From the NCBI RefSeq assembly GCF_030695035.1, contig NZ_JAUYTT010000008.1:620001-684000 (forward strand): a stretch of 64,000 nucleotides of DNA, written 5' to 3'. Of this stretch, positions 29,329 through 56,592 are shown in pieces. How positions within the stretch are numbered: position 1 is the first letter of the stretch; each line of letters opens with the position of its first letter. The notes under the pieces were generated by a model, which saw nothing but the letters and a program-made list of their open reading frames with translations, was not told the origin of the DNA and ran no database searches. Both the position numbers and the translations under genes were made by a program. This DNA is from Frigidibacter sp. (GTDB lineage Bacteria; Pseudomonadota; Alphaproteobacteria; Rhodobacterales; Rhodobacteraceae).

Positions 29329-29376
29329 CATGTCTGGCGCCTGTGGCTGGCGGCGGGGGGCTTTCTGCCCCCCGCA

Positions 29377-29394
29377 CCCCCCGAGGATATTTGG
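29377..29394 (+). repeat. Copy 1 of dispersed motif CCCCCCGAGGATATTTGG, preceded by hairpin GCGGGGGGC-TTTCT-GCCCCCCGC
   Basis: Direct reading; same motif at 36649, 36711 and 56509. Confidence 0.75.
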
Positions 29395-29491
29395 ACCAAA
29401 ACGAAGATGGGCGCAGGACAAAGCGGTTGCACCCAGCCCGCGTTTCACGGCCATGTTGGGGCCTGCGACACTGACCCCTGAAAGGACCGCC

Positions 29492-34364: not shown

Positions 34365-36520
<2,156 letters not shown>

Positions 36521-36604
36521 TCAGCTTTCAGGTAAGGTCGGGAACAGGCGATAGACCCGTTGCGCGCGGGGATCAAGCGTTGCGGGGGGGTGAGAGGGGG
36601 GAAA

Positions 36605-36676
36605 GGGGGGCCGTCTGCCCCCATCTTGGCGCGTGCCGCGCCAATTCACCCCCCGAGGATATTTGCAAAAAAGCAG
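36605..36676 (+). repeat. Copy 2 of the structured repeat: two hairpins plus CCCCCCGAGGATATTTGCAAAAAAGCAG
   Basis: GGGGGGC-CGTCT-GCCCCC, TTGGCGCG-TGC-CGCGCCAA, then the conserved motif. Confidence 0.75.
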
Positions 36677-36700
36677 AGCAGAGGGGCGCTGCTGCCGCAT

Positions 36701-36765
36701 CTGCTTTTTTCCAAATATCCTGCGGGGGGAGCCCGAAGGGCGTGGGGGGCGCAAAGCCCCCCTTC
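36701..36765 (-). repeat. Copy 3 of the structured repeat, inverted relative to copy 2
   Basis: CTGCTTTTTTCCAAATATCCTGCGGGGGG, then AGCCCGAAGGGC and GGGGGGC-GCAAA-GCCCCCC hairpins. Confidence 0.75.
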
Positions 36766-36770
36766 TTCGG

Positions 36771-37340
36771 TCAGCCCATCTTGCGCAGATAGGTCCAGGT
36801 CGGCACCCTTGCGCCGCGGGCGACGGACCAGCTTTCGGCATCCCCCAGATAGGCGAAGCCGCAATTGGACAGGACGCGCGCAGAGACCGGGGCATCCTGG
36901 AACACCTCGGCGAAGAGGGTGCGCGAGCGGTGCGGGTTGGCCGCGACGAGGGCCGCGACGGCCTCTGACGCGAAGCCGGTGTTCCAGAAGGCGGGCGCGA
37001 CCCAGAAGCCGACCTCGGACTGGTCCCGCTCCATATGCGTCAGCGAGACCAGACCTAGCACTTCGGCAAGGCCATGGGCCGAGCCGTCAAGCGCCCAGAC
37101 ATCCTCATGCACCGCGCCCGCTGCCGGGGTGCCGGTGACGCGGGCAATGAACGCCTCTGTCGCGCCGGGGGGCAGCGGATGCGGGATCGCGCGGGTGCCT
37201 TCGGCAACCCGGCGGTCGGCGGTGTACATCGAGATGAGGCCGGCATCGGACCTCCGCAGCGGGCGCAGCACGAAGCGCTCCGCCGGGATCACCTGCGGGG
37301 CGGTCTGTTGCGGGCGGGTGTCCAGCGGCGCGGCGGTCAT
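36771..37340 (-). CDS. GNAT family N-acetyltransferase
   Basis: RFVLRPLRRSDAGLISMYTADRRVAEGTRAIPHPLPPG...GFWVAPAFWNTGFASEAVAALV. Confidence 0.88.
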   Translation of the reverse strand: MTAAPLDTRPQQTAPQVIPAERFVLRPLRRSDAGLISMYTADRRVAEGTRAIPHPLPPGATEAFIARVTGTPAAGAVHEDVWALDGSAHGLAEVLGLVSLTHMERDQSEVGFWVAPAFWNTGFASEAVAALVAANPHRSRTLFAEVFQDAPVSARVLSNCGFAYLGDAESWSVARGARVPTWTYLRKMG

Positions 37341-56406: not shown

Positions 56407-56508
56407 TCCTGCCGGGCTTTCCGTTGCAGGACAGCACCTATCCGGACGGTCCTCGGCATCCCACCGCGCCACCCCTGCCCCCGGATCACTCCCTTACCCT
56501 TTGCCTTT

Positions 56509-56592
56509 CCCAAATATCCTCGGGGAGGTTTCTCAAGGAGGGGCCGAGGCCCCTCCTTGAGCGAGGGGGCGCGGGGGAGCAGGCTCCCCCGC
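56509..56592 (-). repeat. Copy 4 of the structured repeat: CCAAATATCCTCGGGG plus two perfect hairpins, downstream of the aminotransferase gene
   Basis: CTCAAGGAGGGGCC/GGCCCCTCCTTGAG (56532-56561) and GCGGGGGAGC-AG-GCTCCCCCGC (56571-56592). Confidence 0.8.

Follow-up and report, generated by a model that had tools for sequence, protein, structure and literature searches.

A family-wide intergenic repeat of the Rhodobacteraceae with species-specific tails and a sequence code for a probable capped triple helix

The interval between obgE and a GNAT-family acetyltransferase gene of Frigidibacter sp. (positions 36590-36768 of the window, the 64,000-nucleotide stretch of contig NZ_JAUYTT010000008.1 that we analyzed) holds a tail-to-tail pair of one dispersed repeat. 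On balance, the account we prefer is that of a family-wide intergenic DNA element, paired here through its tails, whose single units can fold into a triplex closed by a base-paired cap. A sequence-only reading of the interval had described a structured intergenic repeat in two head-to-head copies. It took the design to be REP/MITE-like or RNA-structural, judged it more elaborate than a terminator and recognized no named family. A check of the window recovered every string it had quoted at the position it had assigned, and the proposal held. Beyond its view were the anatomy of the single unit, the triplex and cap code, the species specificity of the tails and the absence of a transcription-strand bias.

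The GNAT gene follows rplU and rpmA in tandem. The central arms of the pair are CCCCCCGAGGATATTTGCAAAAAAGCAG (36649-36676) and CTGCTTTTTTCCAAATATCCTGCGGGGGG (36701-36729), and on its outer side each has hairpins of its own. Folded as RNA, the 181-nt stretch reached -106.8 kcal/mol (z -6.5) and none of 200 dinucleotide shuffles was as stable; folding as DNA gave the same outcome (z -6.5, 0 of 200 shuffles). The stretch is no chance palindrome. The parts of the pair and of two further copies in the window are as follows.

35489-36514, minus strand: obgE (flanking-gene context).
36605-36622, plus strand: first hairpin of unit 1, with G6 (36605-36610), loop CCGTCTG (36611-36617) and C5 (36618-36622); read from the sequence, with pairs that covary across copies and genera.
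36626-36644, plus strand: second, variable hairpin of unit 1, TTGGCGCG-TGC-CGCGCCAA, then TTCA; read from the sequence.
36649-36664, plus strand: third run of unit 1, C6 (36649-36654), core prefix GAGGA (36655-36659) and TATTT (36660-36664); supported by run-length match and loop-core covariation.
36667-36676, plus strand: tail of unit 1, AAAAAAGCAG, type C of the source genome; read from the sequence.
36701-36710, minus strand: tail of unit 2, AAAAAAGCAG, complementary to the unit 1 tail and forming with it the center of the long stem.
36713-36729, minus strand: TATTT (36713-36717), core prefix GCAGGA (36718-36723) and third run C6 (36724-36729) of unit 2.
36731-36741, minus strand: second hairpin of unit 2, GCCC-TTC-GGGC; read from the sequence.
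36744-36762, minus strand: first hairpin of unit 2, with G6 (36757-36762), loop CTTTGCG and C6 (36744-36749); read from the sequence.
36771-37340, minus strand: GNAT-family acetyltransferase gene (flanking-gene context).
29353-29408, plus strand: further copy of the single-hairpin type with tail CCAAAACGAAG (79.2 bits; L017).
56496-56557, minus strand: further copy with A in the purine run (GGAGGGG/CCCCTCC/CCTCCCC) and a mirror-matched third run.

In each unit, a purine run is joined through a loop to its pyrimidine complement; about 3 nt, or a second hairpin, separate this from a second pyrimidine run, which has the same length, and a core and a tail follow. The core is GAGGATATTT-like and ends in GGATATTT or a variant of it; 2-4 variable bases then lead into a species-specific, purine-rich tail of about 10-12 bases. 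Several head subtypes coexist, each with its particular loop and core prefix. In unit 1 the GA of the core prefix GAGGA pairs with the TC of the loop, and in unit 2 the loop bases TTTGC pair with GCAGG of the core prefix; the latter subtype (CTTTGCG with GCAGGA) is also present in another genus (L285). Sister copies have alternative arms in the second hairpin (TTTGCC/GGCAAA and CTGGCC/GGCCAG). We also observed head hairpins that are at times tandemly repeated upstream of a unit (L011, L016 and L033), with spacers such as GAAACGAAGAAG, and several tandem copies at one site of a sister species (G437, C22 near 222150-222480).

Covariation establishes both the hairpin and its contact with the core. 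Among 108 distinct copies from many genera, 6 of the 9 hairpin pairs had substitutions in both partners; the outermost pair was GC in 44 copies and CG in 43. In the same copies, loop base 4 and its partner, core base 2, were seen as U-A, A-U, C-G and G-C, and the signal was lost when the partners were slid by 1-3 columns. Loop-core complementarity over 60 distinct combinations scored 133, whereas 2000 shuffles averaged 101 and did not exceed 128. The clearest individual cases are two copies from a single genome, each with a joint change of a loop base and its partner in the core: CTGCCTG with GGGGA (L298) and CTGACTG with GTGGA (L299), set against CTGTCTG with GAGGA. Other combinations include TTTTCCA/GGAGGA, TTTCACA/GTGGGA, CTTCGCG/GCGGGA and CTTTGCG/GCAGGA. 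The cap has only two base pairs in the commonest loop, CTGTCTG, and one recorded combination (CTGACTG with GAGGA) breaks it.

The third run also obeys a code. In 281 single-hairpin copies, the purine run and the third run were equal in length in 92.5%, versus 68% after shuffling. The equality held within one loop type (p 0.0002) and across an intervening second hairpin (p 0.0008), and the correlation is partly due to subfamilies. A mirror test is possible where the purine run contains an A, because a T in the third run marks a duplex when it sits at the Watson-Crick position and a triplex when it sits at the mirror (Hoogsteen) position. All 8 informative copies have this T at the mirror position and none has it at the Watson-Crick position; they comprise the window copy at 56496-56557 and seven from other genomes (L061, L119, L188, L189, L226, L227 and L314), several genera being represented. 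Three scripted calls were set aside, two of them "Watson-Crick" (the third runs were all C and the A's lay outside) and one "mirror" (L077, which is not a real unit). Some copies, L188 and L226 among them, satisfy the triplex code and the cap code simultaneously. These observations make likely an anatomy that includes an intrastrand triplex with a paired loop-core cap, an inference drawn from sequence alone, without biophysical data and on eight informative cases. Whether the triplex forms in DNA, in RNA or in both is a matter that sequence cannot decide. The complementary strand could fold as well, in the purine motif, and would be the more plausible one in cells because the C+.G-C triplets of the forward strand need acidic pH.

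Copies abound in the source genome and across its family. CCGAGGATATTT occurs 58 times in the source genome (29 per strand) and its reversed control not once, and a pattern for the whole element was met 20 times in 464 kb but never in eight dinucleotide shuffles. A covariance model (R1) built from 20 single-hairpin copies matched at least 143 sites in the source genome, 45-140 sites in four other species of the genus, and 118 of 150 Rhodobacteraceae genomes sampled at one per genus; the R1 counts are lower bounds, since only a limited number of candidates was scored in each genome. Copy number among genera ranges from none to more than 100. The repeat is essentially absent elsewhere in the Alphaproteobacteria: outside the Rhodobacteraceae, the 12-mer was near background and R1 gave only marginal matches in 4 genomes. 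Matches listed from a named genome collection were Rhodobacteraceae/Rhodobacterales relatives such as Paracoccus, Cereibacter, Gemmobacter and Thalassovita, except for two metagenome bins labeled only Proteobacteria or Alphaproteobacteria, and plasmids of C. sphaeroides also bear the repeat. No Rfam family scored above its gathering threshold for the window pair, the only matches being sub-threshold ones of microRNA type and to one frameshift element, and we found no description of the repeat in the literature searched. Thus, none of the outcomes that would have refuted the sequence-only reading came about: the copies occur far above chance frequency, the hairpins covary, and no Rfam or tagged-REP family matches. 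A phage origin was considered and discarded, as the phage records gave no match. Six IMG/VR contigs hold one copy each, and four of them are 13.7-14.0 kb long; in L321, L324, L325 and L326 (~14 kb) the copy lies within about 1.4-1.8 kb of one end. Their size leads us to suspect gene transfer agent clusters in host DNA.

Genomic context was scored over 464 kb from the source genome and 785 kb from a sister species. All but two of 77 units were intergenic (75/77). Units per intergenic kb numbered 1.34 where the flanking genes converge, 0.63 where they run in tandem and 0.23 where they diverge. Within tandem intervals, 28 units ran with the genes and 20 against them (p 0.31). The unit tracks gene 3' ends, not the transcribed strand. 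That copies hug the 3' ends in either orientation favors a role at the DNA level over one as a terminator or RNA signal. Further, some sites have an ordinary hairpin-plus-T-run terminator between the gene end and the unit, and one terminator of this kind (GGCGCC...GGCGCCTTTTTT) lies just upstream of the copy at 29353-29408. The heads themselves have no U-tract, and T6 occurs only at the center of the pair.

The tails of a pair are matched to each other. Partner tails agreed better than swapped partners did (p ~0.001 in the source genome and 0.002 in other genera), and tails in pairs do pair (-14.6 vs -9.8 kcal/mol); in 2 of the 4 listed sister-species pairs they do not match. Three species of the genus retain both heads at the window site and carry GGAAAAAAGCAG, GGAAAAGGCAAAG or ACAACAAGGCAAAG as tails, with the opposite arm changed to match, for a total of five compensatory pair changes; the unit 1 tail AAAAAAGCAG is replaced by AAAAGGCAAAG or ACAAGGCAAAG at this site in sister species. 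A fourth species has a decayed remnant there and a fifth has no pair. In other genera, where the gene start could be located, the region upstream of obgE showed no such pair. In one congener (G439, L361), the same two genes enclose a different G/C inverted repeat and no pair. Units are also found in tandem or facing each other by their heads, as in L001/L002 (source C1:40150-40457) and at source C4:393024/393091.

Tail turnover in place is also evident at single units. Of 14 copies tested, 12 occupied the matching site in the sister species, and the other two are a pair whose center is deleted there. Over 12 orthologous units, identity was 99% in the core, 88% in the head and 67% in the tail, and the tail had changed to another word at 11 of 12 orthologous single-copy sites, the flanking genes being ~92% identical. 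Tail words form a small set that differs from one sampled genome to the next, and several unrelated words coexist within one genome. The 10-mer CCAAAACGAA, for example, occurs 49 times in the source genome (reversed control, 2) and lies 3 nt past the TATTT of a unit in 28 of 30 inspected cases, behind several head types and with the 3 nt variable. This concerted change between sister species has no tested explanation. We found no clean empty site among the syntenic sites compared, such as a MITE (terminal inverted repeats with target-site duplication) would leave in relatives, and mobility is not shown. PIT/BoxC/TM triplex repeats are marked by unusual rearrangement of their loci among relatives; here, beside the 12 of 14 conserved sites, three sites of G437 correspond to longer, unrelated sequence in the source genome (no control loci were compared). 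At source C4:330601-331239, ~550 bp of unrelated sequence stands in place of the sister's unit pair (G437 C22:328650-328990); by appearance alone, it may hold a toxin-antitoxin gene pair.

The account we prefer assigns a fold to each of these parts. The first two runs would form the hairpin, with the second pyrimidine run following the Hoogsteen code of the purine run, and the loop bases would pair just past the third run, so that a single strand could double back two times and close a capped triple helix; the two tails of a pair would add a further long stem. The hairpins, the loop-core pairing, the third-run code and the pair stem are shown by the sequences; folding at the DNA level is only inferred. 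The element may act as DNA, folding when its strand is single during lagging-strand synthesis or through supercoil extrusion. The evidence leaves this DNA-level account of function as readily wrong as right, and the function itself is an inference. The repeat would be REP-like and probably of mobile origin, an ancestry that we infer, and is now vertically inherited and tolerated or kept just past gene ends. Once folded, it would be a likely obstacle to polymerases, also by inference, and stalling followed by template switching between copies could exchange tails within a genome while the heads stay fixed, a step that is both inferred and untested. Three variable bases between TATTT and an otherwise exact tail fit poorly with simple copying from the core. 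A bolder reading, which we regard as possible though not likely, is that a dedicated process actively rewrites the tails and keeps ~100 dispersed sites per genome in concert, whether protein-guided, RNA-guided or by template switching at triplex-stalled forks. It is suggested by the change of 11 of 12 tails behind conserved heads, the fixed distance of one 10-mer behind several heads, and the joint change of both arms at the window site.

Among the alternatives, an RNA element could serve as a terminator, an RNase-blocking hairpin or a processing site at mRNA 3' ends, with the pseudoknot or triplex formed in RNA and the pairs working as bidirectional terminators. In its favor, copies lie near stop codons and are densest between convergent genes. 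The central stem of the window pair reads A6-stem-U6 on both strands and is the sole terminator-like match nearby, and the G437 and G438 orthologues retain an A-rich stem with a T-rich 3' side. Yet tandem intervals lack a transcription-strand bias, some pairs sit between divergent genes, the heads offer no U-tract, terminators already precede the unit at some sites, and the tails of single copies are unpaired with their own downstream sequence. We consider it unlikely. A few loci had suggested a strand-specific terminator or 3'-UTR signal, which the unbiased context count overturned, and single-copy tails were rejected as half-terminators (-10.6 vs -10.1 kcal/mol with the downstream sequence of other copies). 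A plain hairpin with a competing second C-run, that is, a bistable duplex without any triple helix, would also produce equal run lengths if the purine run pairs with either C-run. It predicts the T at the Watson-Crick position, however, and since all 8 informative cases have it at the mirror position, this is the least credible of the rivals.

A classic REP/REPIN mobilized by a Y1 (IS200/IS605-like) transposase, be it a RAYT or a different one, with the pair as the mobile unit, would match the size, copy number, intergenic placement and mixture of inverted pairs and singles described for REPs (PMC3733652, PMC3116915). Against it, the source genome has no Y1 transposase (Y1_Tnp, PF01797), only 15 of 150 family genomes have one and several of these hold few or no copies, the hairpin foot lacks a GTAG or CGTC tag, and 12 of 14 copies are at the same sister-species site without a clean empty site. 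We rejected the RAYT link on the transposase counts and hold this explanation to be improbable. The tail could instead be the word recognized by a chromosome-organizing or recombination protein, shifting with the protein between species; the placement of CCAAAACGAA irrespective of head type and the species-specific vocabulary of tails speak for it. Several unrelated tail words per genome and the spread of copy number among genera speak against it, no protein has been identified, and we doubt this reading as well.

Comparison with known systems places the repeat between two classes: its proposed mode of action is that of PIT-type triplex repeats and its genomic distribution that of REPs, and it is a member of neither. 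With BoxC/PIT/TM_ECO (Holder et al., 2015; PMC4666352) it shares a short, G/C-rich, three-run mirror architecture with single-strand triplex potential, and many dispersed, strictly intergenic copies without strand bias that include inverted pairs of two unlike types. It does not meet that family's consensus, CCCTCNCCC N3-6 GGGNGAGGG N3 GGGNGAGGG (C-G-G, 9-nt runs). Its order is purine-pyrimidine-pyrimidine (G-G-C in reverse) rather than C-G-G, its runs are ~4-8 nt and mostly 5-6, its 5-7 nt loop pairs with the flank as a cap, and it has a fixed core and tail and a family-wide range. The published triplex search (PMC4666352) admitted no stems below 6 and only loops of 1-6, limits that would make it miss most Rhodobacteraceae copies, and the main text of that paper makes no mention of Rhodobacter, Paracoccus, Ruegeria or Roseobacter. 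REP, BIME and REPIN elements (PMC3733652, PMC3116915) are likewise high-copy, palindromic intergenic repeats found past gene ends as singles and inverted pairs. Foot alignments do not show the GTAG of GTAG-REPs, nor is there a repeat-flanked RAYT, and an alignment (A1) does not show the CGTC tag, the 8-9 bp stem starting with A/T pairs or the CCA tail of CGTC-REPs (PMC3733652). The REP literature that we examined describes neither a triplex code nor a loop-core cap. The designed oligonucleotides of Sklenar and Feigon (1990) reportedly form a foldback purine-loop-pyrimidine-loop-pyrimidine triplex, with the same strand order and mirror code; the Rhodobacteraceae repeat, in contrast, is natural and has a paired cap. 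With bidirectional intrinsic terminators, the repeat shares the A6-stem-T6 at the center of the window pair, whereas singles have none and neither orientation nor neighboring genes require a terminator. The criterion for an intrinsic terminator, a GC hairpin plus U-tract in sense to the upstream gene, is not met by heads without a U-tract and with unbiased orientation.

The case for natural DNA triplexes usually rests on sequence composition or on in vitro work. Here, evolution supplies covariation of base triples and cap in more than 100 copies per genome and in a large, tractable family that includes Cereibacter (Rhodobacter) sphaeroides. The number of covarying copies and the tractability of the family mean that triplex formation in vivo, and its effects near genes and forks, can be tested directly. 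How dispersed repeats stay alike within a genome is a different puzzle, posed by the concerted turnover of tails. Draft assemblies, too, are interrupted by the repeat: in the source genome (G000), several contigs start or end inside a copy (C4:25, C12:24, C25:76 and C9 near its end), as expected of a repeat that breaks short-read assembly.
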